From positions 1-64,000 of the forward strand of contig JAOUEW010000007.1 in assembly GCA_029858505.1 (NCBI GenBank): 64,000 nucleotides of DNA, written 5' to 3'. Shown piece after piece: positions 2,388 through 45,876 of the stretch (positions are counted from its first letter, which is position 1; each line of letters starts with the position of its first letter). The position numbers and the translations under genes were made by a program. Source of the stretch: Deltaproteobacteria bacterium. GTDB lineage: Bacteria; SAR324; JACQKK01. Under the pieces are notes generated by a model. It was not told the origin of the DNA and did no database searches. It saw only the letters and a program-made list of their open reading frames with translations.

Positions 2388-2391
2388 GCGC

Positions 2392-2445
2392 AGACCTTTG
2401 CATAACCAGGGGTTCTCCCGTGAAAAGGGGGGTTGGGGGAAAATA
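2392..2445. repeat. Family B REP-like fragment
   Basis: AGACCTTTGCATAACCAGGGG followed by CCCGTGAAAAGGGGGG matches, in one orientation or the other, sequences near 9975, 16873, 21800, 46140, 54490 and 55798. It lies in the 129-bp gap between two kinase genes. Confidence 0.5.
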
Positions 2446-2516
2446 ATCTTTGCTGTGATATCCAAGTTTTCTTCTTGGGTTGACGCATATACCTTCAAAT
2501 TTTGGTTGAGTAAAAC

Positions 2517-24513: not shown

Positions 24514-24879
24514 TTATCCCTCTTTTTGAATGTTCGGCGGGGGCGTGGGCAGGGCACCGGCACCGGCCCGGGGAATGGCCGCTCGGGGGGGGGATGGAGG
24601 CCGGGGATCCATAAAACTTCCCGCCCGCCGCTCCAGTTCACCGGCCACGGCTGGGGGCAGGGGGGCCCAATCCTCTGCCAGCGGTACGTCTGCCGGGCCG
24701 CCTGGGCCATCGCTTCGCCGCGGCGGAACCCCACGGGCCAAAGCCCGGCCCTCCTCCGACAAACGGGCAGGCGCTTCCAAATCGGCTCCAGCGGGCGGGC
24801 TACCCCACAGGCCGCTCCGCCAGCGGGCAAACCGCCGGATCATCGTTTCTATCTGAAACGTAGAAAACCCCATGGTCAT
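24514..24879 (-). CDS. Small Pro-rich protein coupled to flaG
   Basis: This protein of about 120 residues is of unknown function. The N-terminal part (MTMGFSTFQIETMIRRFARW) is helical. The remainder is rich in Pro, Ala and Arg and ends GALPTPPPNIQKEG. Its ATG at 24879 overlaps the flaG stop as ATGA; a second in-frame ATG at 24873 is better spaced from AAAGG, so either may be used. Placement after flaG and the fliT-like gene suggests a filament or export role (inference). Codon third positions are GC-rich like those of neighbours. I recognise no domain. Confidence 0.6.
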   Translation of the reverse strand: MTMGFSTFQIETMIRRFARWRSGLWGSPPAGADLEAPARLSEEGRALARGVPPRRSDGPGGPADVPLAEDWAPLPPAVAGELERRAGSFMDPRPPSPPRAAIPRAGAGALPTPPPNIQKEG

Positions 24880-25292
24880 CCTTTGGTGTTCACAAAAATC
24901 CCCGAAGCTTCTTTCATCCGCGCGGCGATATCCAAAAACTCCGTGGCTGGAATCTGGCCAATGGCTCGGCCGGATTTCATGTCGTGAATCACCGCGTAGG
25001 AATACCCGGATTCCTCGTGGTAACGAAACTGGATGGAGTGAAACTGCTGCATGCCCTGAATGCTGGCATTGGCCTTTTGAATGGCCCGGTCCATCCGTTC
25101 CTTCACTTCCGCCCGTACCTTGGGGGCATCCATCACATCCTTGCGCATTTCCGCCTTCAGGATGGGATTGTTCTGCGGATCCAACTTCGGATCGGCGATC
25201 CGCAGGGGGGGCGAAGCGTGAATGGCCGTTTCGTGAATGGCCGTTTTCGCGGGCATTTGTTCTGCCTGCGGGTCCATTTGCGTGATTTTCAT
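24876..25292 (-). CDS. flaG: FlaG family flagellar protein
   Basis: This 138-residue protein has the FlaG core at the C-terminus: FRYHEESGYSYAVIHDMKSG, then IGQIPATEFLDIAARMKEASG. These match the family pattern of a strand pair followed by V.D..tG.vI.qIP. FlaG proteins influence filament length, and their genes commonly sit near flagellin and fliD. The N-terminal ~90 residues are variable and charged. AAGGAG precedes the ATG at good spacing. It lies in a minus-strand run fliT-like, flaG, small Pro-rich gene with short gaps, probably one transcript. Confidence 0.85.
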   Translation of the reverse strand: MKITQMDPQAEQMPAKTAIHETAIHASPPLRIADPKLDPQNNPILKAEMRKDVMDAPKVRAEVKERMDRAIQKANASIQGMQQFHSIQFRYHEESGYSYAVIHDMKSGRAIGQIPATEFLDIAARMKEASGIFVNTKG

Positions 25293-27220: not shown

Positions 27221-27658
27221 CTAGTGAATATCGTTCTTAAAGATTTCCCGGTAACCCTGGCCGTACAACCCCGTGGTGACCCACGGGTCGGTATCGCGCA
27301 TGTTCATGTGGGCCAGCCCGCGCAGCATGCGGGCGGTGAAATACAAATCTTTGGCTTGCTTGGCGCTGTCGGCGTCATAGTCTGGGCACGATTTGGCCGA
27401 AAGGGACAAATTCATGGCATCTTCCGACCAGTAATACGCGTTCAGCAGGTTTTCATCGGCCCGCATTTTGTAATACTTGGCCATCTGTACCTTGGCGTCC
27501 TCGTACAACACCGAGGCCTGATACAGCGCCAATGGCGCGCAGGCCCCCATGGGCACCGGGCTCTTGGCCTGGGGAGCCAGCAAGCAGCCCCCCAGCCCCG
27601 CCGCCGCCGCGAGCCAGACCAGCCCTTTCCAGGCCAGATTCGTTTGTCTGCAATTCAT
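27221..27658 (-). CDS. Small predicted lipoprotein
   Basis: This 145-residue protein has a signal peptide ending in the lipobox LGGC at about residue 24. The start is ATG 27658 with GGAGG at ideal spacing; a GTG nine bases upstream is less likely. The mature part is helical and Tyr/Ala-rich (LYQASVLYEDAKVQMAKYYK...LNAYYWSEDAMNLS...AKDLYFTARMLRGLAHMN), somewhat like TPR-type helical pairs. It contains two further Cys residues (about 39 and 92) that could bond. The family is not recognised. It is likely co-transcribed with mnmE. Confidence 0.72.
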   Translation of the reverse strand: MNCRQTNLAWKGLVWLAAAAGLGGCLLAPQAKSPVPMGACAPLALYQASVLYEDAKVQMAKYYKMRADENLLNAYYWSEDAMNLSLSAKSCPDYDADSAKQAKDLYFTARMLRGLAHMNMRDTDPWVTTGLYGQGYREIFKNDIH

Positions 27659-27780
27659 GGCGCACACCTCCTTCCCTTCATGTTCTCGCTTCCCTTTGTT
27701 TTCCCGCCCAGGTTATCGTTTTCCCCTCCAAACCACCCCCGAATCTCTGTATTGAATTTTTCCGCTTTGTGAAACAGACC

Positions 27781-27855: not shown

Positions 27856-29340
27856 CTAATCCAACAACTGAACAACCCGCGACGGATAGTGGTTGGCGTG
27901 GGACAACGAAGCCACGTTGGCATCCAACTGGATCCGGTTCTTGGTAAACTCGGCGATTTCTTTGGCCATGTCGGTGTCCCGGATGGCCGATTCGGCCGCC
28001 ACCAGGTTCTCCGACGCGACCCGCATCACCGCCAAGTTGATCTCCAGGTTGTTGCGCTGAATGGAGCCCAACTCGCCGCGAGCCAGCGAAATTTCGTTGA
28101 TCGCGGAGTCTACCACCTTCACCGTGTCGTGGGCGCCTTCCACCGTGGTCACATCCACCTCGGCCAGGGATTTCACCCCGGTCTCGGTTTCGATGTTTCG
28201 CCCCAAGGTAGAAGGGGTAATGTTGGGCAGCGCCAGCCGGGTGTTTTCCCCCGGCTGCCCGCCGGTTTGGAAGGTTAGGGCCGAGTTGATGACATGCACC
28301 GTACCCACCGTGCCCACCATGGGCTGATGGACTTTCTCCATCTGCCCGGGATTTCCTTCCACCGGTTTTTCCACCATCGGGCCCGTGTACATTACCGACA
28401 GGCCGTCGGTGTTGGGGTTTCCTTCGCCGCCGATCAGGGTTTGGCCGCGCCCGTAGGCCGCCTCGCCGTTGATCGTTCCGCGAATGTCCAGCCCCTGGGT
28501 GGCCTCGACCGCCTTGTTGGCTTCGGGAGAAAGCACGCCCGCGGCCGAACTGACCACCGAGAACGTCGGCACGCTGCCGTATTCTTGGTGGGTCAGTTTG
28601 ATGCGGTTGTCTTGGGTGATGGTGATGTCCACCTTCATCCCTTGCTTTTCCACCTCGCCTTTCAAGCGGCCCAGAAAGCGCTCCACCGAGTCATCGCTTT
28701 TGGCTTCCACGTGTGCCACGTGTCCGCCTTCCATGATGTCGATGGACAGCCCCTTCAGGTTTTCCGTGGTTACCGCCTGGCTGCCTTCGATTTGGGCCTG
28801 GGTGGCTACCTGGGTCACATCCACCCGGTAACCCTCCACCGGCGTGCTGCGGGTGGTGATGGCTCCCTTCACGAAGGTCAGCCCCTCACCCGTCGCCGTG
28901 CCGTTGATGCCCGTGGAACCATCCAGCAATTTCTTCCCGCCGAAACGGGCGGTCTGGGTGGTCCGCTGCAAAGACTCCAAGGCGTTACGAATTTCCATCT
29001 GGTCGGCAGCCAGCATGTTGGCGTCGTTGGCCCCTTCGTTCGAGGCATGCAGCGCCAATTGCCGGATACGCACCAGCTGGTCGTTGATTTCCGCGAGTGC
29101 CCCTTCGGTGGTTTGCACCATCGCGTTGGCAATCTCGGTGTTGGCCGCGGCCTGGTTAACCGATTTAATTTGGGCGCGCATCTGCTCGGAAATGATCAAC
29201 CCGGCTGGGTCGTCACCCCCTTTGTTGATGCGAAACCCAGAACTTAATCGTTCCAGAGAGTCGGCCAGCTTCTTGTCCGTGGCACTCATGTAGCGCTGGC
29301 CGCGGACGGAAGCAATGTTATTGTTGATACGAATGGCCAT
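27856..29340 (-). CDS. fliC: Flagellin (paralogue 1)
   Basis: This 494-residue filament subunit has N-terminal D0/D1 (about 1-150): INNNIASVRGQRYM, LERLSSGFRINKGGDDPAG, ISEQMRAQI and HASNEGANDANMLAADQ. The central D2 insert (about 160-380) carries the motif GLDIRGTINGEAAYGRGQTL. The C-terminal D1/D0 (about 385-494) has VDSAINEISLARGELGSIQRNNLE and DTDMAKEIAEFTKNRI. The last residues HANHYPSRVVQLLD keep the hydrophobic D0 pattern but differ from the other copies. AGAGGTGACTT precedes the ATG. It lies 81 bp downstream of a flagellin-like gene and probably ends a three-gene transcript. It is the most divergent of the six full-length flagellins at its D0 ends. Confidence 0.95.
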   Translation of the reverse strand: MAIRINNNIASVRGQRYMSATDKKLADSLERLSSGFRINKGGDDPAGLIISEQMRAQIKSVNQAAANTEIANAMVQTTEGALAEINDQLVRIRQLALHASNEGANDANMLAADQMEIRNALESLQRTTQTARFGGKKLLDGSTGINGTATGEGLTFVKGAITTRSTPVEGYRVDVTQVATQAQIEGSQAVTTENLKGLSIDIMEGGHVAHVEAKSDDSVERFLGRLKGEVEKQGMKVDITITQDNRIKLTHQEYGSVPTFSVVSSAAGVLSPEANKAVEATQGLDIRGTINGEAAYGRGQTLIGGEGNPNTDGLSVMYTGPMVEKPVEGNPGQMEKVHQPMVGTVGTVHVINSALTFQTGGQPGENTRLALPNITPSTLGRNIETETGVKSLAEVDVTTVEGAHDTVKVVDSAINEISLARGELGSIQRNNLEINLAVMRVASENLVAAESAIRDTDMAKEIAEFTKNRIQLDANVASLSHANHYPSRVVQLLD

Positions 29341-29421: not shown

Positions 29422-30894
29422 TTACAATCCTTCCTTGGAAGGGCGGAGCTCTTTCAGGGACAGGGCGGACAATCCGCCTTCCCCTGGATCTCGGTTCAAC
29501 AGCCGCAGCATGGGGCCGCCCCCGTGCTGGGCCAAGGCCTCCACGGCCTCGGACCCCTGGACCGGAATCTGACGGCGCAGGTGTTCGGCCATGGAGCGGG
29601 CCAGGTCCGCGTGGAGCAGCGCGCCTTGCGCCGCCACCACGTTTTCTGCCCGCACCTGATAATTTTGCAACGTTTGGAGCAACGGCCCGGAAGCCATGGT
29701 CTCCAGCACCGTTTGATGCCCCGCCAGTTCCGTCAGGGCGGCCTGGGCCACCTCTGCCGCGGCCCTGGCCGCCGGGGGGTTGTCTAAGCGGATGGCCGCC
29801 AGAGAGTCGTATCCCTCCGGCACATCCACCCCCCGCCCCAGATGGCGGGGGTGAACCGAAGGCAGGTGAACCCACACCGGCGGGCCCAAATGGGACCCCG
29901 GATGAAACACCATGCCGTTCCTCACCAGCACCAACCGGCCTTCCGGCAAGACCTCCGGCCTGGGCAGGTGGGGGTCCCCTGGGTCAGGGGGGGGCTGCCA
30001 GGCCGCCACCAATCCTTCCAGGTGGGTGCCCGTAGGCCCAAATAAAAAGCATCCCTGGCCCTCGGCCGGAAGACCATCCAGGGTTCCCTGGATGTCTTGC
30101 CCCATATACAGCCCGCCCGTGGACCCCAGCACTTGGGGGGGGTCACTGACCGCGCTGAAGCCATGCTGCCGACCCATCCGGCGGTGGGCGATGAAAAACC
30201 CTCCGCTGGACGCTCCAGCCCATAAGTCTAATCCAGCCCGACGAAAGACCTCGCTCAGGCGCGCCACCACCGCCTCCGGGGGCAGCCCAGGGGGAACCTC
30301 TACCCGCACCAACTGGCCGCCCTCTCCCAGTTCCAGCCGGAACGGTCCGGCCGGGAGATGGCCCCTGACCAGGGCCCGGCGGGGCAGGCGGCTCACCGCC
30401 ACCGCGTAGCCCTCCGGCGGGGAAGGCCGGGTGAACGCTTCGGCCCGGACAAACCGGAACCCTTCGCCCACCGCCATGCCTTCCACCCCCTGGCTGCCGT
30501 CCATCATCCGCCGCGGACCAAAGCGGGTGTCCTCCGCCGCCGCCGCCAAACAGGCCAGCAACACCGAGGGGTCCCGCTGCTCCGCCGGCAGGGGTTCGTT
30601 CTCCGCCGCCTGGGCCATACGGTGCAGTTCTTCCACCCATCCCCGGCAGCGACGCAGTTGGGTTAACGCCAACCCCGCCAGCACCGATGCCGACTCGGCC
30701 GACTGTACCGCCTGGTCCAACGCCGCCAGCAGGCTCCGCCCCTGTTCCGAGCGTTCCTGCCCGCCGCCAGCACCCGCCCCAACCGGAAGAGACTTGCTCT
30801 CCTCCGGCGGGGGGGCCTTGTTTCGGCGTGCTCCCGCGGCCAGGCCACCTTGGGCAAAACCCTGGCCGCGAAAGCCCTGAATGGACAAACTCAT
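29422..30894 (-). CDS. Flagellin-derived protein lacking the N-terminal D0 helix
   Basis: This 490-residue protein aligns with the flagellins beside it but is strongly diverged. The first 45 residues (Gly/Ala/Arg/Pro-rich) replace the polymerising D0 helix. LDQAVQSAESASVLAGLALTQ aligns with the flagellin QAVDNAETAIGMVQTTEAAL helix. RRMMDGSQGVEGMAVGEGF keeps the D1-D2 junction, and PSPPEGYAVAV matches SPVEGYAVKV. GQDIQGTLDGLPAEGQG matches the D2 motif. The C-terminal AENVVAAQGALLHADLARSM keeps the D1 helix, then ...GPMLRLLNRD and an extra 20-residue tail. The strong ribosome site GGGAGGT and intact 490 codons argue against a pseudogene. It lies 34 bp after one flagellin and 81 bp before another. 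It may be a minor filament or junction protein, or a regulator (inference). Confidence 0.8.
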   Translation of the reverse strand: MSLSIQGFRGQGFAQGGLAAGARRNKAPPPEESKSLPVGAGAGGGQERSEQGRSLLAALDQAVQSAESASVLAGLALTQLRRCRGWVEELHRMAQAAENEPLPAEQRDPSVLLACLAAAAEDTRFGPRRMMDGSQGVEGMAVGEGFRFVRAEAFTRPSPPEGYAVAVSRLPRRALVRGHLPAGPFRLELGEGGQLVRVEVPPGLPPEAVVARLSEVFRRAGLDLWAGASSGGFFIAHRRMGRQHGFSAVSDPPQVLGSTGGLYMGQDIQGTLDGLPAEGQGCFLFGPTGTHLEGLVAAWQPPPDPGDPHLPRPEVLPEGRLVLVRNGMVFHPGSHLGPPVWVHLPSVHPRHLGRGVDVPEGYDSLAAIRLDNPPAARAAAEVAQAALTELAGHQTVLETMASGPLLQTLQNYQVRAENVVAAQGALLHADLARSMAEHLRRQIPVQGSEAVEALAQHGGGPMLRLLNRDPGEGGLSALSLKELRPSKEGL

Positions 30895-30928
30895 GGTTTA
30901 CCTCCCTTCTTCTCCAAAGACGTGTGGG

Positions 30929-32383
30929 TTACTGCAACAGCGCCAGCACGGTCCTTGGGGTCTGGTTGGCATGGGCCAACATGGCCATGGAGCTTTGTTG
31001 CATGATGGAGTTGCGGGTGAACTCCGCCACTTCCTTGGCCATATCGGCATCGCGCATCACGCTCTCCGAGTTGGTCAATTCTTCGGCGCCAATCCGCAGC
31101 TGCCGCAGGTTGCTTTCCAGGGTGTTTTTCTGGAAGGCACCCATCTGGGCCCGGATCACGTTCACCTCATCAATCGAGCCATCAATCAACCGTTGGGCGT
31201 CTTCCGCGCCTTGGGCGGAACGGATGTCGATGTCCCGCAGGCTTTTGTACCCGCTGACGTTCTCCACCCCGCGGCCCAGCACCCGGGTGTTGGTGTTCAC
31301 CATTGAAATGGCCACGGTCTGGCCCACGTTGGCGCCCACCTGAAACACCATGGAGTTCTGATAGACCGACACGTTTCCGGCCCGCTCCGCCGAGTCATCG
31401 GCGGTGGCTTCGGTTAGAATATTTCCCGTGTAGCGGATCTTCAGCCCTTCCACCTTGGTGCCTTCGGCGCCCGTGAGGATTTGCCCTTCGCCCAGAGCCA
31501 CTTCGCCACCAATGGTTCCCATGATGTCGCGTCCGGCCTGAGCCTCCTCCATGCGGCGGCCCTGCTGGCTCAACACCCCAGAACTGGTGGACGACACCGA
31601 GAAGCCGTATTGGCTGCCAAAAGACCGGTGCCGCAGGGCCAGGGTGTTGTCCTCGCCCACGATCAGGTCCACTTCCAGTCCGTTCTTTTTAATTTCGTTG
31701 CGGAACTTACCGATGGCCTGAGATACCGAGTCGCCTTTTTTGGTTTGGAAGCTGACAGTTTTCCCGCCCTCGGTCACGGTGAGCTCTTCGCCCGCATCCA
31801 CCATTTCCTGGGTCAGGGCCGTGGTGCCTTCCACATGGGCCTTCTCGGCGATTTGCTGCACCTTCACCGCGTACCCTTCCACCGGAGACGAGCGGGTGGC
31901 CGGATTGGCGGAGATAAATTGCAGCCCTTCGCCCATGGCCACGCCGTTGGCCCCCTGAGAACCGTCCAGCAGCTTCTTCACGCCAAAGCTGGCCGAACCG
32001 GTCAGGCGGTCAATGGTGTTGAGAGAGTTGTCCAGCTCCATTTGGTCGGCGGCCAGCATGTTGGCGTCGTTGGCCCCTTCGTTGGCGGCGTGGATGGCCA
32101 ATTGCCGCATGTTGGTCAGCAGATTGGTCACCTCCGTCAAGGCCGCCTCGGTGGTTTGCACCATCCCAATGGCGGTCTCGGCATTGTCCACCGCCTGGTT
32201 CATCCCGGCGATTTGGGCCCGCATCTGCTCGGAAATAATCAGCGTGGCTGGCCCATCGGCGGCACGGTTTACCTTCATCCCGGACGACATCTTTTCCAGG
32301 GACTTGGTCAGGCCTCGGTCGTTGATGGCCACCCAACGGTGCCCGTTCAACGCCGATATATTGTGGTTAACTCGCAAACCCAT
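30929..32383 (-). CDS. fliC: Flagellin (paralogue 2)
   Basis: This 484-residue flagellin has N-terminal D0/D1 with NHNISALNGHRW, LEKMSSGMKVNRAADGPA, LIISEQMRAQIAG and HAANEGANDANMLAADQ. The D2 insert (about 155-370) carries RSSPVEGYAVKVQQIAEKA and GRDIMGTIGGEVALGEGQ. The C-terminal D1/D0 ends ...MLAHANQTPRTVLALLQ. The start is ATG 32383 (MGLRVNHN), with AGGAGGATGTC upstream; the open frame continuing to 33472 runs through non-coding tandem repeats and is rejected. It is about 94% identical by eye to the flagellin at 33553-35007 (about 28 differences in 484). It heads a probable transcript with the flagellin-derived gene and paralogue 1. Confidence 0.96.
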   Translation of the reverse strand: MGLRVNHNISALNGHRWVAINDRGLTKSLEKMSSGMKVNRAADGPATLIISEQMRAQIAGMNQAVDNAETAIGMVQTTEAALTEVTNLLTNMRQLAIHAANEGANDANMLAADQMELDNSLNTIDRLTGSASFGVKKLLDGSQGANGVAMGEGLQFISANPATRSSPVEGYAVKVQQIAEKAHVEGTTALTQEMVDAGEELTVTEGGKTVSFQTKKGDSVSQAIGKFRNEIKKNGLEVDLIVGEDNTLALRHRSFGSQYGFSVSSTSSGVLSQQGRRMEEAQAGRDIMGTIGGEVALGEGQILTGAEGTKVEGLKIRYTGNILTEATADDSAERAGNVSVYQNSMVFQVGANVGQTVAISMVNTNTRVLGRGVENVSGYKSLRDIDIRSAQGAEDAQRLIDGSIDEVNVIRAQMGAFQKNTLESNLRQLRIGAEELTNSESVMRDADMAKEVAEFTRNSIMQQSSMAMLAHANQTPRTVLALLQ

Positions 32384-32607
32384 GACATCCTCCTTGGTGT
32401 GTGGGGCCTTCCATCGCGTCCATGACGAATTCCCGGTTTTACGAGAGACTCCCCTTCTTTCCGGCCTACGGGCAAATTCACCCGCCCGTCGGCCCGCGTC
32501 CCGCGGTACGAAAAGAGAAATCTCGTCCTTGAGTGCCCGGCTGAGCGCGTAACGCCACGCTTCGCCGGGTGTTACGCGCAGGATGATTCCCGCGCGTTCC
32601 CTGCCCC

Positions 32608-33345
32608 CCGGATGAACCGGGGCACTGTTTTTCCCCGGTGAAACCAGGGCGTTGCGTCCGGAGGGAGCAGGGGGATTTCCCCCTGTCTTCCATCCGGGAT
32701 CTGGCGGCCGCCCGCGTGCGTCGTCCTGAATCTGGACGGAGGGGGGCGGCCAATCTGGGCCGGTCTGCCACAGGCCTCCCGTCTTTCCAGGTGAAAGCCT
32801 GGAAGGGCGGGGACCCAGGGTCCGGCGTTGTCTACCCCGGAATGAACCGGGGCCTGTTTTTCCCCGGTGAAACCAGGGCGTTGCGTCCGGAGGGAGCAGG
32901 GGGATTTCCCCCTGTCTTCCATCCGGGATCTGGCGGCCGCCCGCACGCGTCGTCCTGAATCTGGACGGAGGGGGGCGGCCAATCTGGGCCGGTCTGCCAC
33001 AGGCCTCCCGTCTTTCCAGGTGAAAGCCTGGAAGGGCGGGGACCCAGGGTCCGGCGTTGTCTACCCCCGGAATGAACCGGGGCCTGTTTTCCCCCGGATG
33101 AACCGGGGCAATGTTTTTCCCCGGTGAAACCAGGGCGATGCGTCCGGAGGGAGCAGGGGGATTTCCCCCTGTCTTCCATCCGGGATCTGGCAGCCGCCCG
33201 CGCGCGTCGTCCTGAATCTGGACGGAGGGGGGCGGCCAATCTGGGCCGGTCTGCCACAGGCCTCCCGTCTTTCCAGGTGAAAGCCTGGAAGGGCGGGGAC
33301 CCAGGGTCCGGCGTTGTCTACCCCGGAATGAACCGGGGCAGGGCT
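32608..33345. repeat. Three tandem copies of a ~229-bp repeat
   Basis: Equivalent points (AAACCAGGGCG) fall at 32641, 32870 and 33127, giving unit lengths of 229 and 257 bp. The longer spacing comes from an extra ~28-bp copy of a CCGGATGAACCGGGGCA subunit. Units are almost identical. Each contains hairpins TTTCCAGG-tgaaag-CCTGGAA and CCCCGG-aatgaa-CCGGGG. The unit length is not a multiple of three, so each copy is read in a different frame and the array is not protein-coding. It lies between two nearly identical flagellin genes. The rest of 32384-33552 holds no gene. Confidence 0.92.
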
Positions 33346-33552: not shown

Positions 33553-35007
33553 TTAGCCCAGCAGCGCCAGAACCGTTTTGGGGGTCTGGTTGGCCTGAGC
33601 AAGCATGGCCGTAGAGGCCTGCAACATGATGGAGTTGCGGGTGAAATCGGCCACCTCTTTGGCCATGTCCGCATCGCGGATCACGCTTTCCGAGTTGGTC
33701 AATTCCTCCGCCCCGATCCGCAGCTGCCGCAGGTTGCTTTCCAGGGTGTTTTTCTGGAAGGCACCCATCTGGGCCCGGATCACGTTCACCTCATCAATCG
33801 AGCCGTCAATCAGCCGTTGGGCGTCTTCCGCGCCTTGGGCGGAACGGATGTCGATGTCCCGCAGGCTTTTGTACCCGCTGACGTTCTCTACCCCGCGGCC
33901 CAGCACCCGGGTGTTGGTGTTGACCATGGAGATTGCCACGGTCTGGCCCACGTTGGCGCCCACCTGAAACACCATGGAGTTCTGATAGACCGACACGTTT
34001 CCGGCCCGCTCCGCCGAGTCATCGGCCCCGGCTTCGGTGACCTTCGACCCGGTGTAGCGGATCTTCAACCCTTCCACCCTGGTGCCTTCGGCGCCGGTGA
34101 GCACTTGGCCTTCGCCCAGGGCCACCTCTCCGCCGATGGTTCCCATGATGTCGCGTCCGGCCTGAGCCTCCTCCATGTGGCGGCCCTGCTGGCTCAACAC
34201 CCCAGAACTGGTGGACGACACCGCGAACCCGTACTTGCTGCCAAATTCTCGGTGCCGCAGGGCCAGGGTATTGTCCTCGCCCACGATCAAGTCCACGTTC
34301 AGCCCGTTCTTTTTAATTTCGTTGCGGAACTTTCCGATGGACTGAGATACCGAGTCGCCTTTTTTGGTTTGGAAGCTGACGGTTTTCCCGTCTTCAGTCA
34401 CGGTGAGCTCTTCGCCCGCATCCACCATTTCCTGGGTCAGGGCCGTGGTGCCTTCCACGTGGGCCTTCTCGGCGATTTGCTGCACCTTCACCGCGTACCC
34501 TTCCACCGGAGACGACCGGGTGGAGGGGGTGGCCGAGATAAACTGCAGCCCTTCGCCCATGGCCACGCCGTTGGCCCCCTGAGAACCGTCCAGCAGCTTC
34601 TTCACGCCAAAGCTGGCCGAGCCGGTCAGGCGGTCAATGGTGTTCAGGGCGTTGTCCAATTCCATTTGGTCGGCGGCCAGCATGTTGGCATCGTTGGCGC
34701 CTTCGTTGGCCGCGTGGATGGACAATTGCCGCATGTTGGTCAGCAGATTGGTCACCTCCGTCAAGGCCGCCTCGGTGGTTTGCACCATCCCGATGGCGGT
34801 CTCGGCGTTGTCCACCGCCTGGTTCATCCCGGCGATTTGAGCCCGCATCTGCTCGGAAATAATCAGCGTGGCCGGTCCATCGGCGGCACGGTTCACCTTC
34901 ATCCCCGAGGATAACTTCTCCAGGGACTTGGTCAGGCTTCGGTCGTTGATGGACACCCAACGGTGCCCGTTCAACGCCGATATGTTGTGGTTGACTCGTA
35001 AACCCAT
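33553..35007 (-). CDS. fliC: Flagellin (paralogue 3)
   Basis: This 484-residue flagellin is a near twin of paralogue 2. The domain layout is the same: D0/D1 1-150, a D2 insert with GRDIMGTIGGEVALGEGQ at about 290, and C-terminal D1/D0 ending MLAQANQTPKTVLALLG. Differences from the twin cluster in the D2 domain (for example HREFGSKYGF against HRSFGSQYGF) and in the last 30 residues. That pattern suggests surface and end-contact divergence. AAGGAGGTCCTC precedes the ATG. It is followed by its own hairpin and preceded by a 950-bp gap, so it is probably monocistronic. Confidence 0.96.
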   Translation of the reverse strand: MGLRVNHNISALNGHRWVSINDRSLTKSLEKLSSGMKVNRAADGPATLIISEQMRAQIAGMNQAVDNAETAIGMVQTTEAALTEVTNLLTNMRQLSIHAANEGANDANMLAADQMELDNALNTIDRLTGSASFGVKKLLDGSQGANGVAMGEGLQFISATPSTRSSPVEGYAVKVQQIAEKAHVEGTTALTQEMVDAGEELTVTEDGKTVSFQTKKGDSVSQSIGKFRNEIKKNGLNVDLIVGEDNTLALRHREFGSKYGFAVSSTSSGVLSQQGRHMEEAQAGRDIMGTIGGEVALGEGQVLTGAEGTRVEGLKIRYTGSKVTEAGADDSAERAGNVSVYQNSMVFQVGANVGQTVAISMVNTNTRVLGRGVENVSGYKSLRDIDIRSAQGAEDAQRLIDGSIDEVNVIRAQMGAFQKNTLESNLRQLRIGAEELTNSESVIRDADMAKEVADFTRNSIMLQASTAMLAQANQTPKTVLALLG

Positions 35008-35961: not shown

Positions 35962-37416
35962 CTAGCTGAGCAGAGCCAGCACAGACTTGGGAGCCTGGTT
36001 GGCTTGCGCCAACATGGCCGCCGAAGACTGCATCATGATGTTGTTGCGGGTGTACTGAGCCACCTCCTGAGCCATGTCGGCGTCGCGGATCACGGAATCG
36101 GCGTTCACCAACTCTTCCATGCTGATGCGCAGCTGGCGGAGGTTGGCTTCCAGGTTGTTCTTCTGGAAGGCACCGATATGGGCCCGAGACACGTTCACTT
36201 CGTCAATGGCTTTGTCAATCAGCCGCTGGGCATCGGTGGCACCCTGAGAAGAGCGCAGATCGATGTCGCTGAGGCTTCTGTACCCGCTTTGGTTTTCCAC
36301 GCCGCGGCCCATGACCCGGCTGTTGGTGTTCACCATGGAGATGGACACCGTTTGGCCGGCATTGGCGCCGATTTGGAAAATCAGCGAGTTTTGATACACC
36401 GCCATGCGGCCCGCGATGGGGGCGTCGGCGTCGGCGTCCTTGGCGGTTACGGTATCGCCTTGGTAGCGCAGAACCAGCCCTTCCACTTTGGTGCCTTCCG
36501 ATCCCGTGAGGATCTGGCCTTTGCCCATAGCCACTTCCCCGCCGATGGTGCCGATGATGTCTTTTCCAGCCGTGGCAGATTCCATCTCGCGAGACACCTT
36601 GGACAACACGCCAGCCGTGGCAGACGACACGGTGAAGGTATATTCGGAACCGTAATCGTTGTGTTCCAGTTTCAACCGTCCGTCTTCCGTTTGGCTCACG
36701 TTCACGTTCAAGCCGTTGGCCCGCAGGGCTTCCTTAAACTTGCCCAGGGCCTGCTCCACCGTCCACTCCTTCTTGGTGGTGAACGACACGGTGCGGCCGC
36801 CTTCCGACACGGTCAGCTCTTCACCGTTCGACACCATCTCCTGGGTCAGGGCCGTAGAGCCTTCCACAGCGGCCTTGGTGGCCAGCTGCTCGATGCGCAC
36901 GTCGTAACCTGCCACGGGAGAAGTACGGGTGGCGGGGCCGGCTTTCACGAACTCCAGGCCTTTGCCAATACCCACGCCGTTGGCACCTTGAGAACCATCC
37001 AGCAGCCGCTTCTTACCGAAAGCCGCGTTCTGGGTCAGGGCGTCAATGGTTTTGATGGAGTTGTCAAACTCCAACTGGTCGGCTTCCAACATGTTTTCGT
37101 CGTTGGCGCCTTCGTTGGCCGCGTGGATGGCCAATTGCCGCATGTTGGTCAGGATGTTGGTCACCTCGGTGAGGGCCGCTTCCGTGGTTTGCACCATGGA
37201 AATGTCGGTCTCCGAGTTCTCGATGGCCTGTTTCATCCCAGACACCTGGGCCCGCATCTGCTCGGAAATAATCAGGGTGGCGGGTCCGTCGGCGGCACGG
37301 TTGACTTTCTCTCCGGAAGACAGTTTTTCCAGAGATTTGTTCAGGTTCCGGTCGTTGATGGTCATCCAGCGATGTCCGACCATAGCCGAAATGTTGTGGT
37401 TGATTCGCAAAGCCAT
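35962..37416 (-). CDS. fliC: Flagellin (paralogue 4)
   Basis: This 484-residue flagellin has the same length and layout as paralogues 2 and 3 but is more diverged: NHNISAMVGHRWMTINDRN, LEKLSSGEKVNRAADGPA, D2 with RTSPVAGYDVRIEQLATKA and GKDIIGTIGGEVAMGKGQ, and end MLAQANQAPKSVLALLS. The start is ATG 37416 with AAGGAGGT at ideal spacing; a longer frame to 37491 is not needed. It is flanked by a strong hairpin downstream and a 458-bp hairpin-rich gap upstream, so it is probably monocistronic. Confidence 0.96.
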   Translation of the reverse strand: MALRINHNISAMVGHRWMTINDRNLNKSLEKLSSGEKVNRAADGPATLIISEQMRAQVSGMKQAIENSETDISMVQTTEAALTEVTNILTNMRQLAIHAANEGANDENMLEADQLEFDNSIKTIDALTQNAAFGKKRLLDGSQGANGVGIGKGLEFVKAGPATRTSPVAGYDVRIEQLATKAAVEGSTALTQEMVSNGEELTVSEGGRTVSFTTKKEWTVEQALGKFKEALRANGLNVNVSQTEDGRLKLEHNDYGSEYTFTVSSATAGVLSKVSREMESATAGKDIIGTIGGEVAMGKGQILTGSEGTKVEGLVLRYQGDTVTAKDADADAPIAGRMAVYQNSLIFQIGANAGQTVSISMVNTNSRVMGRGVENQSGYRSLSDIDLRSSQGATDAQRLIDKAIDEVNVSRAHIGAFQKNNLEANLRQLRISMEELVNADSVIRDADMAQEVAQYTRNNIMMQSSAAMLAQANQAPKSVLALLS

Positions 37417-37874: not shown

Positions 37875-39254
37875 TTAGCCCGCCACCAGATGGCGCCGGA
37901 ATTGTTCGGCCATGTCCTTGGCCACTTCCGGCTTTTTGGCGCCCAACGTCTTCGGCGCCACGGCCTCTCCATCCGTGGATCGGCCCGACCGGCCCCGGCG
38001 CAAAACCGCCATGGCCCGGTTTTGATACCGCTCAATCCAAATCGAAACCCGCTCTTTCCACTCCTCCATTTCTCCAGACACCGCGTAGAGCATCAGCAGC
38101 CCGTCCAGGGCGTCGCGCCAGCCTTCCACCCGCACCTTCGACAGCGATGAAAACCCGTGGAAGGTATCTACCCAGCGGCCCAGGTTGCGCCCGGCCAGGG
38201 CTGGCAGGCTTAACCGTGCCATGCCGCCGGTGTCTTCCTCTCCGCCATGGCCCGCCGCGTCTTGAAACCGCAGACCGTTCTGAATGACGTGCACCACCGT
38301 TTCTCTCGCCGCCGGGGCCAAGTCTCCCCGCCAAGCCACCGCCAGTTCAGCGGTGTGGCGGTTGTCTAGGTAACCCATCAGCACCCGGCCCATTCCAAAG
38401 GCCGGTTCGCCTCCCAGGGTGCCCTGAATGTCGCGGCCCCGGCGGTTCCACTCCAGCCGCCCGGGCTTCCGGGACAGCAGGGGGGTCGAGCGGCTGCACC
38501 CCTTAAAGCGGGGCTGCGAGCCGTACTGCACATGGCGGATCACCAGCCGGCCCTGGCGGGTCAACCCCGCCTCCAGGCTCAGCCCCTGTTCCATCAGGGT
38601 CCGGTTCAGCCCCTGCACAAATTCTTGGGGGCCCATGTCTTTGGTGGGGCGAAACCGCACAAAGCGGTCTCCCTCGGTAAGAACAATTTCGGTTTCCGCC
38701 CGAATCCAGTCTTCATCCACCGGCACGCTGCCCAGCAGATAGCCGCGGGTGGGCAGAGACTCCATCTTCACCTCATAGCCCTCCACCGGAGAGCTTTGGG
38801 TATCTGGTCCGCCCCGGATGAAATCCACCCCTTCACCCCAGCCGGTCAGGCCGGATTGGCCATCCAGCAGGCCCCGGCCGTGAAACCGGCAGCCCCGCAC
38901 CAGCTGGTCCACTTGTTCCATTTTGGCCGCCAGCATGGCGTCGATCTTGGCCAGGATGGAATCCCCCTGGGGGGCTTCCTGCGGGGCCTCGCCCCAGTGG
39001 GCGTGAATGCCCTGGATGGCCTCCACCAGCCGGGCGTCAATTTTTTCCATGCCCTGCCGGGCCGTTTGCAGCAGAGACACCACCGTTTCCAGGTTTTTCA
39101 TTTCCTGGTCTTCGGTCAGGTCTCCGGTTTCAAACCGCAGCCAGCCAGCGGGGCGAACGTCTTTCTCTCCTTCCAGCGCCTTGGGTAAAATCTCCTCTTC
39201 CGTGGGGAGTTCCACCTCGGTCAACAGCCGGTGTATGGTTTCCGTCCGGTTCAT
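37875..39254 (-). CDS. Flagellin-derived protein lacking both D0 ends
   Basis: This 459-residue protein keeps the middle of a flagellin but not its polymerising ends. The N-terminus (1-45) is acidic (TEVELPTEEEILPKALEGEK), with no NHN.SA motif. Weak D1-like helices follow (about 55-135). The D1-D2 junction is clear: GRGLLDGQSGLTGWGEGVDF then SSPVEGYEVKMESL. The D2 motif is RRGRDIQGTLGGEPAFGMGRV. Near the C-terminus KPEVAKDMAEQFRRHLVAG echoes the flagellin DMAKEVAEFTRNSI helix, and the protein stops there without the final D0 helix. AAGGGTGG precedes the ATG. It lies 225 bp after flagellin 39480-40958. Intact reading over 459 codons argues for a retained function, unknown. Confidence 0.78.
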   Translation of the reverse strand: MNRTETIHRLLTEVELPTEEEILPKALEGEKDVRPAGWLRFETGDLTEDQEMKNLETVVSLLQTARQGMEKIDARLVEAIQGIHAHWGEAPQEAPQGDSILAKIDAMLAAKMEQVDQLVRGCRFHGRGLLDGQSGLTGWGEGVDFIRGGPDTQSSPVEGYEVKMESLPTRGYLLGSVPVDEDWIRAETEIVLTEGDRFVRFRPTKDMGPQEFVQGLNRTLMEQGLSLEAGLTRQGRLVIRHVQYGSQPRFKGCSRSTPLLSRKPGRLEWNRRGRDIQGTLGGEPAFGMGRVLMGYLDNRHTAELAVAWRGDLAPAARETVVHVIQNGLRFQDAAGHGGEEDTGGMARLSLPALAGRNLGRWVDTFHGFSSLSKVRVEGWRDALDGLLMLYAVSGEMEEWKERVSIWIERYQNRAMAVLRRGRSGRSTDGEAVAPKTLGAKKPEVAKDMAEQFRRHLVAG

Positions 39255-39479: not shown

Positions 39480-40958
39480 TTAGCCGTTCCGCAGCAGCGA
39501 CAACACGCTTTGAGACGACTGGTTGGCATGGCCCATCATGGCCATGGAGGACTGCATGATCACCTGGTTGCGGGTGAACTCGCTCATTTCCTCGGCCATG
39601 TCCGCGTCGCGGATCACGCTTTCGGCGGAGACCAGTTCCTCCTGGGCCACGCCCAGGGACCTCAACTGAGACTCCAGAGAGTTCTTCTGCACGGCCCCCA
39701 GGTCGGCCCGCACCCGGTTCAGGTCATCAATGGCCCTGTCCACCATCCGCATGGTGTCGGCGGCACCCATGGCCGTGCGCACATCCACATCGGCCAGGCT
39801 GCGGTAACCAGACTCGTTGGCCATGTTGCGGGCCAGGGTTTGGGTCGACACCGCCTCCAGGGCCACCGCCGCACGCTGCCCGGCGTTGGGGCCAATCTGA
39901 AAGATCAGCGAGTTTTGGCTCACGTTCACCCGGCCCACCGGAATCTTGGGGTCGGTGGGCATGGGGCCGTCGTAGGTCACCAACAGGCCGTCGGCCTGGG
40001 TGCCAGCGGCGGCGGTGAGAGTGTTGCCCCGCCCAATGGCCAACTGGCTGTTGATGTTGCCCAACAAGTCCAGGCCGTTGTTCACCGACTCCGGTTGAGA
40101 ATCCGATGTGGCCAGCACGCCCGCCACGCTGGATGCCACCACGAAGGAATGCTCCGAACCCACCTTGTTGTGAGAGGCCTTCAGCACAAAGCTCGGTTTG
40201 TCCGGGTCTTCGCTATTGGGGTCCAGAATTTTTTCCACCGTCACGTCGACCCCAGCGTTTTTGGCCATGGTGTTCAGCATGTTCACCACAATTTCGCTGT
40301 CGTCTCCCTTTTTGGTGGTATAGGTGGCCACGCGGCCTCCTTCCGAAACGGTCACGGTCACGCCTTGGTCAATCAGCGTCCGGGTCAGGGGCACAGATCC
40401 TTGGCGGGTGGCTTTGCTGGCCGTCTGGGTCACCCGAACCTCATAGCCTTCCTCTGGGGAGGCTTTGGTGGCGGGGGTGGCCCGCAAAAACGTTAAGCCC
40501 TTGCCGGCGGCCACGCCGTTCACGCCCCGGCTGCCATCCAGCAGTTTCTTGCTGCCAAACACGGCGCTTTGGGCTACCCGGTCAATGGCCTCCAGGGTGT
40601 TCTTCACCTCAAACTGATCGGCGGCCAACATCAGCTCGTCGTTGGCCCCTTCGTTGGCCGCGTGCACCGCCAACTGGCGAATGCTTAGCAGCTGATGGTT
40701 CACTTCGTTCAAGGCCGCTTCCGTGGTTTGCACCATGGAAATCGAGGTTTCCGCGTTGCGCATGGCCTGGGTCACCGAGGCAATCTGGGCCCGCATCTGT
40801 TCGGAAATCATCAGGGTGGCGGGGCCATCGGCGGACCGCACCACTCTCTCGCCTGAAGACAAATGCTCCAGGTTGCGTTTCATCCGCTGATCCACGTTCA
40901 GCATGTTCCTGTGCGTGTTGATCGCGGTGGTGTTGTGATTGATGACAAGCGCTCCCAT
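39480..40958 (-). CDS. fliC: Flagellin (paralogue 5)
   Basis: This 492-residue flagellin has N-terminal D0/D1 with INHNTTAINTHRNM, LEHLSSGERVVRSADGPA, MISEQMRAQIASV and HAANEGANDELMLAADQ. The D2 insert (about 155-380) has KASPEEGYEVRVTQTASKA and GLDLLGNINSQLAIGRGN. The C-terminal D1/D0 ends SMAMMGHANQSSQSVLSLLRNG. AGGAGG precedes the ATG at good spacing. A 460-bp gap separates it from fliS upstream. It is distinct from the 484-residue group, mainly in D2. Confidence 0.96.
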   Translation of the reverse strand: MGALVINHNTTAINTHRNMLNVDQRMKRNLEHLSSGERVVRSADGPATLMISEQMRAQIASVTQAMRNAETSISMVQTTEAALNEVNHQLLSIRQLAVHAANEGANDELMLAADQFEVKNTLEAIDRVAQSAVFGSKKLLDGSRGVNGVAAGKGLTFLRATPATKASPEEGYEVRVTQTASKATRQGSVPLTRTLIDQGVTVTVSEGGRVATYTTKKGDDSEIVVNMLNTMAKNAGVDVTVEKILDPNSEDPDKPSFVLKASHNKVGSEHSFVVASSVAGVLATSDSQPESVNNGLDLLGNINSQLAIGRGNTLTAAAGTQADGLLVTYDGPMPTDPKIPVGRVNVSQNSLIFQIGPNAGQRAAVALEAVSTQTLARNMANESGYRSLADVDVRTAMGAADTMRMVDRAIDDLNRVRADLGAVQKNSLESQLRSLGVAQEELVSAESVIRDADMAEEMSEFTRNQVIMQSSMAMMGHANQSSQSVLSLLRNG

Positions 40959-41420: not shown

Positions 41421-41840
41421 TTACAGGGTCACCGAAATCTTCTTGCGTTCGGCAGATTCTCCACCCGCGGTCTGGGTTTTGATGCTGGCCCAGCCCTCTC
41501 GCAGGGTAGACATGATCTTCACCGCTTCGCGGATCCGGTCCGTGTCTTTATACAGGTTCGCTTCCACCACTTTGTCGAACACATACACATACAAGCGTTT
41601 CAGGTTCCGGCCCACCTCGCCCCCTTTTTCCGGGTTCAGGGTGGCCATCAGCTCGGCCACGATTTCTCTGGAGCGAACCAAATAATTGTGGGCTCCTTCG
41701 ATATCTTGAGCCTCAATTTTTTGTTCGGCCTTTTTCAGGAAGCGGATCAGCCCATCGTACAGCATCACGATCAACGTGCGCTGGTCGGCGGTTTGAATGC
41801 CGGCGGTCTGATATGCTCCGTATGGCGTGTCCTGAGGCAT
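41421..41840 (-). CDS. fliS: Flagellin export chaperone FliS (second copy)
   Basis: This 139-residue helical protein has the FliS signatures: AYQTAGIQTADQRTLIVMLYDGLIRFLKKAEQ near the N-terminus, then INYLV-type helices (GAHNYLVRSREIVAELMATLNPEKGGEVGRNLKRLYVYVFDKV). FliS caps the C-terminal D0 of flagellin before export. AAGAGGGCACC precedes the ATG. It lies 40 bp downstream of another fliS gene on the same strand, so the two are probably co-expressed. The C-terminal tail (SAERKKISVTL) differs from the first copy. Confidence 0.92.
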   Translation of the reverse strand: MPQDTPYGAYQTAGIQTADQRTLIVMLYDGLIRFLKKAEQKIEAQDIEGAHNYLVRSREIVAELMATLNPEKGGEVGRNLKRLYVYVFDKVVEANLYKDTDRIREAVKIMSTLREGWASIKTQTAGGESAERKKISVTL

Positions 41841-41880
41841 GGTGCCCTCTTTGAAATGTGTTGCCGCGGGGTATGGCTAG

Positions 41881-42318
41881 TTATCCCCGCACGTTGATGG
41901 ACTTCAACTGCCCAGAATCGGCCGCCTGCTGGGGCTCTTTGCCCCCGGCGGGAATGGCCTTCCATCCCTCGCGCACTTCCTTCAGCAGGTTCACCACGTT
42001 CCGCACCCTGGCGGATTGGCGGTTGACGTTGGCTTCAATCAGCTCGTTAAACATGAACACATACAGGCGCTGCAGGTTCAGGGCAATGTCGCCGCCCTTT
42101 TCCATGTTCAACGAACCCATCAATTCGGCCACAATGCTTTTGCCCTTCAAGATATTCTCGTGGGCGTCGAAGAACTGCCCTTTGTCTAGTTTATCGGCAC
42201 CCAGGGTCAAAAATTTAATCGCCCCGTCATACAACATGACGATTAATTTCCCCTGGTCCAGGGTGTTCACCGCGGCTTTTTGATAAGCCTGAGAATATCG
42301 TCCGTATCCCGTGGTCAT
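41881..42318 (-). CDS. fliS: Flagellin export chaperone FliS (first copy)
   Basis: This 145-residue FliS has YQKAAVNTLDQGKLIVMLYDGAIKFLTLGADKL followed by AHENILKGKSIVAELMGSLNMEKGGDIALNLQRLYVFMFNEL. The start is ATG 42318 (MTTGYGRYSQAYQ), with GGAGA upstream; 20 extra upstream residues in the open frame are unlike FliS. With six flagellins and two flagellin-like proteins in the cluster, the two chaperones could split the clients (inference). Confidence 0.93.
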   Translation of the reverse strand: MTTGYGRYSQAYQKAAVNTLDQGKLIVMLYDGAIKFLTLGADKLDKGQFFDAHENILKGKSIVAELMGSLNMEKGGDIALNLQRLYVFMFNELIEANVNRQSARVRNVVNLLKEVREGWKAIPAGGKEPQQAADSGQLKSINVRG

Positions 42319-42479
42319 GACAAATCTCCGGTCAATGGCATTGGGGGGCCCAACTCTTTGCAAAGCCCCGTGGTTCAAGAAGGATGGTTCAACACAATTC
42401 CTGTATCTAGGTCATCGGCTGGTATTTCCCAAACTTTAGACAGCACAAAAATAATCAGAAGGATTTCTCCATTTAGCCC

Positions 42480-42735: not shown

Positions 42736-45700
42736 TTATAACCCCGGCAAGGCGCTGCTGGCCGACGGCATGTTGGCCAATTGACCGCCCACATAACTTT
42801 GCTGGCTTTTCAGTTTCTGCATTTGGGTTTCCATGCGGGCAAATTTCTCTTTTAACATGGTGCGTTTACGCACCATTCGCTCGTTGATGTCTTCTAGCTG
42901 CTTGTCATAATCCTTCACGTTGGTTTTCAATCCCTCGGTGATGCGCTTCATGTCTCCCCCTTTGCCGTCGGCTAGCACCCCTTTCAGATATTTATTCAAG
43001 CGGCTGCCCACCCCCCTGGTCACGGTGATTTTGGCTTCGGGCTGTTCTTTCACCAGTTGGCTGTCAATCAGGTTTACAAAAAGCCTCAACCCCTTGGATT
43101 TGCTTTCGTCCACCTTTAACACCTGGCCAGTGCCTTCCGCCGGCAACCCATCCACGGTACCTTGCACATCTTTTCCTGGGTGGCTTTCTCCAGCGGTCAG
43201 GCCCACCCCGGCTTGTTTCACGCCTTCCCCTGGGGCAAAGGCAATGGCGCTCACCGCTCCGTAACGGTTCGACATCACCCGAATCCGGTTTTCTTGCACA
43301 CTCACCGCCACCTTCAGCCCCCCAATGCTCTTGTCGTTCGAAATTTTGTTTTGCAGCATTTTGGCGTATTCGCCCACGGTGAACTTTCCCGATTCCAAGG
43401 TGATGCTTTCCGATTTCCTGCCGTCTACGGTGAGAAGCACCTTGTTGTTGGTGTTGTCCACCACCACCGGGTCAAACAGCACCGGGCTCAGGTAATATCC
43501 CTGGGTGGCCACCTGGGTAATGTCCACGTCCATCCCCACCGTGTTCACCGGGGTGTCATCGGTCATCCCCACCACGGAAATTCCGGCATGGGTAGATTCT
43601 CCCTTGTCGCGGAACAAGGCCGCCACTTGGCCAAAGTCCTCTTTCACTTTCTCGCGAAGTTTGTTTTCATCCAGTTTCAGCAGGCCCTTGTCGTCCATTT
43701 TAATGCCCACGCTCATCAGCATGTTGGTCGACTTGGGCAGCCCCGCCACCGGGTCTAAAATTCCCCGGTCGGTGGCCATTTTAATGTTGGTCATGTCCCT
43801 GTCTCCCAACAGGGGAGAAGCCGTGTTGGTGTCTTTGTCAAACTTCGACAAGTCGTTCACCAGCCCGGCATAGGCGTTGTAGTCATCCACCATTTTCTTC
43901 ACCGCCCCCACGGCTTTTTCGGTGTCTCCAGAAATGGAGATGGTGACCGGTTTGTCGCTGATGGACACCAGATTTAACTTCACCCCCTCAATCACGTCAT
44001 CCAGTTCGTTCACCGAACTGGTGATGGGAATCCCCCCCCCGAACTCGGTAGCCCCCAGCCGAACCAAAGCGTCTTGGGGGGGCATGATGCTGGAGGTTCG
44101 GGTGCGCAGGGTGAAGGTGTCACCCTCATACACCCGCCCCGTTCCAAACGCCATGGAAAGCCCCTCATCCATGGGCAGAGGAAAGCCCTTCATATAACCT
44201 TCACCCACCGGGAACTCCCCCGAATGTCCTTTGTCATCTTCCCACTTGATCTTCAAGTCTTTCGACACCCCAATGCTGCCGTCTTTCAAGGCGGTGAAGG
44301 TGTACACCTTAGCGGTATCGCCGGTGAACTTCCCCCGAACTTCCGCCTTTGTGGTGCTTTTTCGCTCGGCTTCGGGCTCGGGCATGGGCAATTGCGGGCC
44401 CTCTCCCTGCTCGATGTCACTAATGTCTTTTGATTCCTCCTCGGCCTCCTTGGCGTTAAACCAGTTGCCCGGCTGGGCCACTTTGGCCGGAATTTCACGG
44501 GTGGCGTTGTCTTTCCACCACATGGTAGACATCTGCTTGGGCTCGGCAGTAAACGAGGTGGTGTCTCCCTCGCTCAACACCCCACCCTTCACCGACACGG
44601 TCAGGCCGTTGGCCAGCGCCAGGGCCGTGCCCGGCTGATAACCCTTGCCCAGGCGCAATTTTCCCGATTCACCGGTGGAAGTCTTCCATAACAGATCCAG
44701 ATTGTCGGCCACCCCCACCTGGCCAGAGCCAGCAATGGTCAGGGTGAATTCTTTCTCTTCTTCCCCCGTGAAGGTTCCCTTGATTTCCGGGGCGCCTTCG
44801 GTTTTTTGTTTGTCCCACCGGGAGGGCTGAGACACCGCAGACAGTTTTTCTTTGCCCTTCAACCACCAATAATTTTCCGACCGGGCCGACCGCCCCCGCA
44901 CGTTGAACGCATCGCCCACCGATACATCGCCCTCGCTCAACACCAGCGACAAGCCGTCGGCAAAGGCCACGGGCTCGCCGGGGGCATAATGAAAGCTGTC
45001 CAGGTCAATCACGCCATTGCGCCCGGTTTCATCCTCCCAGCGCAGCTGCAAGGCCGTTTCTCCCCCCACCTTGCCGCTTTGCACGGCGGTAAAAGTAAAC
45101 GTATGGTCTTCTTCGTTGTTGTACTCCCCCACCACCCGGATTACCGAGTTCGACACCCCCCCCGCCGCGGGTGCCGCCCCCCCCGCCTTGGGCTTGGGCA
45201 TGGCGCCCTTCCAGTCGGAGGGCAGCTCGTACCCGTTTTCATAATTCAGGGCTTCGCCGCCGGTCAGTTTGATTTCTAACTTGATGCGCCCCTGTTCGCC
45301 GGTTTTTTTGGAGGTCAGCACCAGTTGATAGGGCTGCTCGGGGTGCCCGGTTTTGATGATGGCGGCCGTGACATCAGCGCTGGAGTTGTTGATGGCGTTC
45401 TTCACCCCCTCCAGAGTGTTGTTGGAGGCATCCACCGCAACGGTGGTCATGGCGCCATCGCCAATTCCCAGCTTGATGGTGCCAGTGCCCACCGAGGAGG
45501 TGGGCTGGGGGTAACCTTGAGAGGTGATTTGATGATTCAAAGCCAGCTTATCCACCACCAAGGTGTGCTTGCCCGGCTTGGCCCCCCGGGTGGCGCTGGC
45601 CGTGACCACGCCCTCGTTGCTAGAGGTCACCAGTTTCCCCTCCCACAGACCCGAATCGGCCAGCACTTCCGCCGACCCCTTGAGGGTTTCCAGGGTGCCC

Positions 45701-45876
45701 TTCACTTTGGTGAAGGAATCCAGGCGAACCTTGATCTGCTCCTTGCGGTTCACAATGGGCTCGGCGCGTCTCCCCTCCGCCGCCATCAGGCCGTTGATGA
45801 CCTGGTCGGTGTTGATGCCCGAGGCGAGCCCGCTCATCACGTTGGGGTTGGCGGATGGTCCGCTGACTTTGGCCAT
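42736..45876 (-). CDS. fliD: Filament cap protein FliD, oversized (1046 residues)
   Basis: This protein caps the growing filament and folds exported flagellin. The N-terminal FliD domain (about 12-200) has MSGLASGINTDQVINGLMAAE. The C-terminal FliD domain (about 640-1046) has DTEKAVGAVKKMVDDYNAYAGLVND, and the final coiled coil ends in a Ser/Leu-rich tail. The usual length is about 450-670. The excess lies at about 245-600, where a module of some 80 residues occurs three times (about 246-328, 363-443 and 512-591). Each copy follows the pattern FTFTA..SG.VG....L.L.WED.TG..G....G..pG.p..l.dGLs....G.v..GD.F. Linkers between copies share a YWW/MWW..K and QP..W motif. Near 935-975 GKDVQGTVDGLPAEGTGQVL matches the flagellin D2 motif. 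Confidence 0.95.
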   Translation of the reverse strand: MAKVSGPSANPNVMSGLASGINTDQVINGLMAAEGRRAEPIVNRKEQIKVRLDSFTKVKGTLETLKGSAEVLADSGLWEGKLVTSSNEGVVTASATRGAKPGKHTLVVDKLALNHQITSQGYPQPTSSVGTGTIKLGIGDGAMTTVAVDASNNTLEGVKNAINNSSADVTAAIIKTGHPEQPYQLVLTSKKTGEQGRIKLEIKLTGGEALNYENGYELPSDWKGAMPKPKAGGAAPAAGGVSNSVIRVVGEYNNEEDHTFTFTAVQSGKVGGETALQLRWEDETGRNGVIDLDSFHYAPGEPVAFADGLSLVLSEGDVSVGDAFNVRGRSARSENYWWLKGKEKLSAVSQPSRWDKQKTEGAPEIKGTFTGEEEKEFTLTIAGSGQVGVADNLDLLWKTSTGESGKLRLGKGYQPGTALALANGLTVSVKGGVLSEGDTTSFTAEPKQMSTMWWKDNATREIPAKVAQPGNWFNAKEAEEESKDISDIEQGEGPQLPMPEPEAERKSTTKAEVRGKFTGDTAKVYTFTALKDGSIGVSKDLKIKWEDDKGHSGEFPVGEGYMKGFPLPMDEGLSMAFGTGRVYEGDTFTLRTRTSSIMPPQDALVRLGATEFGGGIPITSSVNELDDVIEGVKLNLVSISDKPVTISISGDTEKAVGAVKKMVDDYNAYAGLVNDLSKFDKDTNTASPLLGDRDMTNIKMATDRGILDPVAGLPKSTNMLMSVGIKMDDKGLLKLDENKLREKVKEDFGQVAALFRDKGESTHAGISVVGMTDDTPVNTVGMDVDITQVATQGYYLSPVLFDPVVVDNTNNKVLLTVDGRKSESITLESGKFTVGEYAKMLQNKISNDKSIGGLKVAVSVQENRIRVMSNRYGAVSAIAFAPGEGVKQAGVGLTAGESHPGKDVQGTVDGLPAEGTGQVLKVDESKSKGLRLFVNLIDSQLVKEQPEAKITVTRGVGSRLNKYLKGVLADGKGGDMKRITEGLKTNVKDYDKQLEDINERMVRKRTMLKEKFARMETQMQKLKSQQSYVGGQLANMPSASSALPGL

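Follow-up and report, generated by a model that had tools for sequence, protein, structure and literature searches.

Flagellins are defined by the packing of their D0 domains, the N-terminal helix of which lines the channel of the filament, and FliS is their chaperone. In Bacillus subtilis, FliS grips the C-terminal part of D0 (D0-C) and also makes contact with D1; for FliW, the N-terminal ~60-72 residues of flagellin and D1-C are required (PMC6070490). HP1076 of Helicobacter pylori, a protein without D0 that is not known to be part of the filament, resembles flagellin D1 in its fold. It binds FliS at the D1 site in competition with flagellin, and its deletion leaves motility intact (PMC7248283). 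Furthermore, the flagellin paralogues FlaE and FlaF of Vibrio are secreted by the flagellar system and have a role in the matrix, and FlaC of Campylobacter is likewise secreted (PMC6692518, PMC5466977). Here we describe a flagellin-derived protein, encoded in a flagellin array of SAR324, a candidate phylum in which every genome has flagellar genes (PMC9031357), and compare it with these systems.

The window, that is the whole stretch of 64,000 nucleotides that was analysed, contains an intact open reading frame at 29422..30894 (-), stop codon included, which starts with ATG and encodes 490 residues; we refer to its product as protein A (P0001). Immediately upstream lies a canonical flagellin matching both Flagellin_N and Flagellin_C (30929..32383, (-)), and the 34 bp gap between the two (30895..30928, (-)) bears the ribosome site GGGAGGT. 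Downstream, at a distance of 81 bp, follows a divergent canonical flagellin (27856..29340, (-)), which Pfam recognizes and which takes this place beside A in other genera too (alignment A3). Two further canonical flagellins were identified by Pfam at 33553..35007 (-) and 35962..37416 (-), another lies at 39480..40958 (-), and FlaG is encoded at 24876..25292 (-). When A was searched against its own genome with tblastn, the closest proteins were the flagellins of the same array, with E values down to 1e-42, indicating that the resemblance is well above chance; the matches begin at residue 44-49, and DGSQGVEGMAVGEGF and GQDIQGTLDGLPAEG of A match up in the alignment with the neighbouring flagellins. 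Pfam, searched at E values up to 1, found no family in A, and NCBIfam returned only weak flagellin matches. A is flagellin-derived, with the D1-D2 architecture and sequence homology that mark FliC, yet it fails defining flagellin features, the Flagellin_N and Flagellin_C families of its neighbours among them. A promoter search of the region revealed no sigma-28 promoter before A or most of the flagellins, and no sigma-70-like site was found there.

The N-terminal D0 domain is missing in A, as judged from three observations. First, AlphaFold models of eight orthologues (mean pLDDT 75.4) show no helix in residues 1-43, where the pLDDT is 28-39. Second, an N-terminal D0 (ND0) profile that scores at least 20 bits on 192 other flagellin-core open reading frames gives no score for A. 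Third, the conserved LSSGxxIN spoke motif, part of the N-terminal D0 helix of FliC, is absent from all A orthologues. What replaces the ND0 helix is a stretch of 45 residues (30760..30894, (-)), alike in the orthologues, in which the first ~6 residues still fit the flagellin start M-x-h-x-I and the remainder is Gly/Ala/Pro/Arg-rich and predicted to be disordered. The C-terminal D0 (CD0), however, is retained in a degenerate form: residues ~443-468 (29491..29568, (-)) are a D0-like helix that ends in the hydrophobic MLRLL, and a tail of 22 residues comes after it. With a profile of the A family, ND1 and CD1-CD0 align with solved flagellins, CD0 reaching residue 303 of the 304 of B. subtilis Hag, and A467 and L482 (flagellin numbering) within CD0 are kept in 8/8 copies of A. 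Foldseek matches of A are flagellins, FliD and a FliS-flagellin complex. A possible conserved FliS-contact arginine (Hag R57) was discarded, the residue aligned with it being non-conserved in A and in flagellins alike.

These results bear out an earlier note on this DNA, which had read the gene as flagellin-derived and without N-terminal D0, on the grounds that its first 45 residues are Gly/Ala/Pro-rich and could form no D0 helix. Its account of a gene with a strong ribosome site, set 34 and 81 bp from two flagellins, is correct by coordinates, and its D1 helices, junction and motif do align with the neighbours. The structure prediction against flagellin that it had proposed as a check gives the same answer, a flagellin fold lacking the N-terminal helix. 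Its picture was incomplete in that it overlooked the retained C-terminal D0 and a second D0-less gene in the same array. The product of that gene, protein B (37875..39254, (-)), has no Pfam match; both of its D0 halves are lost or truncated, D2 is kept, and its AlphaFold pLDDT is 82.5.

Our survey covered 52 genomes of the class, chiefly the window's own family (f1, n=10) and two others (f2, n=31; f3, n=10). A is present in 10/10 f1 genomes as a single copy, always directly beside flagellin genes; the order flagellin-A-flagellin is repeated across genera, and in several contigs mnmE comes next. The A profile scores 579-693 bits on full-length copies in eight f1 genomes and at most 408 bits elsewhere or on flagellins in the 52 genomes. 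The remaining two f1 copies (G002 and G008) are cut near contig ends. We rejected a frameshift in the G008 copy, as the contig turns to unrelated sequence after the stop in all three frames; both mis-assembly and disruption are possible. Proteins related to A and of the same architecture, here called A', are encoded directly downstream of flagellin in five f2 genomes; in those of marine SAR324 (L098:1827-3275, L101:1976-3424 and L110:1784-3229) a Gln/Lys/Arg-rich N-terminus stands in place of D0. B occurs in three SAR324 families (9/10 f1, 7/10 f3 and 5/31 f2 genomes). Relatives with the same flagellin array are variously classified as SAR324 cluster, Candidatus Lambdaproteobacteria or Deltaproteobacteria. 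A tree built on the D1-D2 core resolves A, A', B and the flagellins as distinct groups with SH-aLRT support of 96, 91, 100 and 86, respectively, with long-branch warnings for A and A'; A and B are each one clade. A appears to be an ancient flagellin paralogue. A degenerate-pattern scan of the genome contigs used the alignment of the adjacent flagellin (A3), that of A (A1) being too divergent.

Could A be a decaying, functionless copy of a flagellin? It evolves faster than its neighbours, with a mean identity among orthologues of ~33% compared to 65% and 54% for the flanking flagellins, and the G008 copy is interrupted, though near a contig end. Against this, the gene is open and full-length in all eight genomes with a complete copy, it forms its own clade, and codon positions 1, 2 and 3 are identical in 49, 54 and 39% of codons compared to 31, 25 and 34% after shuffling, so that positions 1 and 2 lie far above expectation. 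As f1 orthologues are so divergent that synonymous sites are saturated, dN/dS was taken on A' of four marine f2 species and not on strains of the window's species; it is 0.045-0.105, and 0.015-0.020 for the flagellin upstream of A'. The earlier note had held that frameshifts or stop codons in close relatives, or a dN/dS near one, would speak against a function; instead, the complete copies from different genera are intact, and dN/dS in A' is far lower. Decay is thus largely refuted and we consider it highly improbable. A is under purifying selection that is weaker than that on flagellin, as far as its sequence and the dN/dS of its A' relatives indicate.

Selection does not act on A as it does on flagellin. 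Of the positions that at least 90% of 62 flagellins have in common, A retains 15% in ND0, 38% in ND1, 83% in D2, 41% in CD1 and 36% in CD0, and B retains 8, 26, 69, 29 and 10%, respectively. D2 (residues ~132-352 of A; 29839..30501, (-)) is the best conserved part of A both by these counts and by domain identity (37%, compared to 32% in ND1 and 28% in CD1). In flagellins ND1 is conserved above D2 (75 vs 59%; 62 vs 47%), and this order is reversed in A (32 vs 37%) and in B (44 vs 55%). A loss of the filament core with a best-kept D2 is what would be expected if filament packing were not selected but the fold, above all D2, were, and argues against export of A into or onto the filament.

The same conservation of D2 is, on the other hand, the strength of the main alternative, in which A, exported as an accessory subunit, coats the surface of the filament or a sheath and is held there by D2-D2 contacts in place of D0 packing. 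No other part of A or B is as well conserved as D2, the fold positions of D2 are kept, A is always encoded in a flagellin array, and a D2-like stretch is also found in the cap protein FliD of the window (42736..45876, (-); 1046 residues, cysteine-free). This alternative accounts better for D2 but fails on cysteine content and codon usage, as described below, and we regard it as unlikely. FliD of relatives also has a flagellin-like D2 stretch, with weak core-profile matches of 40-54 bits.

In the window's genome, FlgB, FlgC, FlgD, FlgE, FlgF, FlgG, FlgK, FlgL, FliD and six flagellins contain no cysteine in 6556 residues (15 proteins), whereas A has three cysteines and B has two (Fisher p 3e-5). 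A thus departs from a trait common to the exported axial flagellar proteins of this genome, every one of those checked being without cysteine. Across f1, 33 flagellins have no cysteine in 15969 residues and cysteine is present in 8/9 A and 9/9 B (p 8e-8 and 2e-9, respectively, the sequences being related and the trials not independent). Since we found no literature basis for the exclusion of cysteine from axial proteins in the open-access literature, the rule rests on the present counts. Some f2 SAR324 flagellins carry cysteines, mostly two (e.g. L061 3304-4842), perhaps as a disulfide; most have none. The simplest reading of these sequences would be that A and B are free of a constraint that bars cysteine from exported axial proteins, and the presence of cysteine is an indirect sign of where a protein is located. 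The codon adaptation of A to ribosomal genes is 0.543, the lowest among the 27 genes examined and below the 0.66-0.74 of the flagellins, which argues against A as an abundant structural part and is contrary to the abundance expected of a surface subunit.

Two other readings in which A leaves the cell meet the same difficulty. A might be secreted through the flagellar export channel as a non-polymerising flagellin homologue that acts outside the cell, much like Campylobacter FlaC or the Vibrio homologues. Its disordered N-terminus of similar length with flagellin-like first residues and its CD0, retained for FliS-guided export, would fit, and excreted homologues that do not assemble have a precedent (PMC6692518); however, the cysteine pattern differs from that of exported flagellar proteins and CD0 is lost in B, making this reading rather improbable. 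Alternatively, a few copies could occupy a special position in the filament through CD0 only, as a chain terminator or next to the cap or the hook. The retained CD0 and D1 fold, an ND0 loss that would block further packing, and the low expected abundance are in keeping with such a role. The cysteine pattern and the loss of most of the conserved D1 positions are not, and the proteins that fill filament ends, FlgK, FlgL and FliD, are cysteine-free in this genome; we hold this to be very unlikely.

A different line of evidence comes from FliS. In the window's genome fliS is duplicated in tandem beside fliD, the first copy at 41881..42378 (-) and the second at 41421..41876 (-; open frame, match 41481-41819); a sigma-28-like TAAA-N15-GCCGATGA lies ~60 bp upstream of the first copy and matches at 11/12 positions. 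A is not adjacent to fliS, and B directly follows FliS-FliS in f2 and FliS-FliS-flagellin in f1, the flagellin at 39480..40958 lying between B and the FliS pair in the window. Among the 52 genomes, 20 of the 23 with two FliS matches encode A, A' or B, compared to 4 of the 18 with one that encode a D0-less paralogue (p 7e-5, phylogeny ignored). Within f2 alone a D0-less paralogue is found in 9/12 genomes with two FliS and in 0/10 with one (p 5e-4, phylogeny ignored). A single FliS is present in four f3 genomes that encode B. A retains the elements on the FliS side of flagellin, and most of the N-terminal FliW region is missing; FliW is encoded in the genome.

The cysteines, the lost D1 assembly positions, codon usage poorly adapted to that of ribosomal genes and the association with FliS duplication together suggest that A is non-axial and probably cytoplasmic, and they point away from the roles that the earlier note had offered (filament surface, junction, sheath contact or chain termination), all of which require export. 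We therefore favour, with a probability of roughly 0.45, the possibility that A mimics flagellin without polymerising, probably remains in the cytoplasm and engages FliS, much like HP1076; its location, binding and effect are inferred. Having lost the ND0 helix and most of the conserved D1 positions but kept the D1 bundle, an intact D2 and CD0, A would build no filament; made from the flagellin locus, it would stay in the cytoplasm at a low level and act as a flagellin mimic on FliS, either competing with flagellin or helping to hold FliS-flagellin complexes, and in this way could adjust the delivery of flagellin. As it lacks the N-terminal ~48 residues, which are part of the known FliW site, A would be poorly recognized by FliW. 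B may be a second, more reduced mimic that is tied to the duplicated fliS. Several points speak against a mimic: one of D1 and CD0 would need no well-kept D2, which may have another function; most flagellin-conserved CD0 positions are lost in A (36% kept); and as deletion of HP1076 is without a motility phenotype, the analogy yields no function. Whether cytoplasmic mimics (A, A' and B) that co-evolve with duplicated FliS control, throughout SAR324 and independently of FliW-CsrA, which flagellin is exported and when is a broader proposal that we think doubtful.

Compared to HP1076, A shares a flagellin-D1-like fold without N-terminal D0. HP1076 is D1-like and helix-rich, whereas A and B have a full D2 and a sequence recognizable as flagellin, CD0 is retained in A, and the genes of both lie within flagellin arrays in a different phylum. 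HP1076 is absent from the PDB sequence matches of the A profile and from the Foldseek matches listed, and the relation is most likely one of functional analogy. With FliC/Hag (PF00669, PF00700), A shares the D1-D2 architecture, CD0 and the locus; it differs in the absence of ND0 and of a Pfam match, in the lost filament-core positions and in its cysteines. FlaE, FlaF (PMC6692518) and FlaC are likewise flagellin paralogues that are non-structural in the filament, but unlike these secreted proteins A and B have no ND0. The large tandem array with two fliS genes resembles that of Magnetococcus massalia MO-1, for which sheathed bundles are discussed; the MO-1 filament is reported to contain all 14 of its flagellins, and the portions of that paper drawn on here mention no D0-less paralogue (PMC7175107). 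We found no published description of D0-less flagellin paralogues in SAR324, nor of D0-less flagellins in general besides HP1076, in the open-access literature. A conserved and selected group that has given up D0 and kept D2 indicates that the flagellin fold is reused beyond filament building. Should A and B prove to be partners of FliS, the possible role of HP1076 in H. pylori would have an independent counterpart, and bacteria that have many flagellins would possess a means of sorting or metering them. Whether a flagellin-like protein is exported can also be tested cheaply by the cysteine rule.

Other features of the window were observed in passing. The spacer upstream of the flagellin at 30929..32383 holds a tandem repeat (32605-33339) with units of 229-257 bp that match at 96-97%, which gives rise to a long spurious open frame. 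A small lipoprotein-like reading frame of 148 residues with an LGGC motif (27221-27667, (-)), located between the flagellin array and mnmE, has no family match. Finally, four 7TMR-DISM histidine kinases of similar architecture are clustered at 357-4556, 4880-6946 and 10040-12079.
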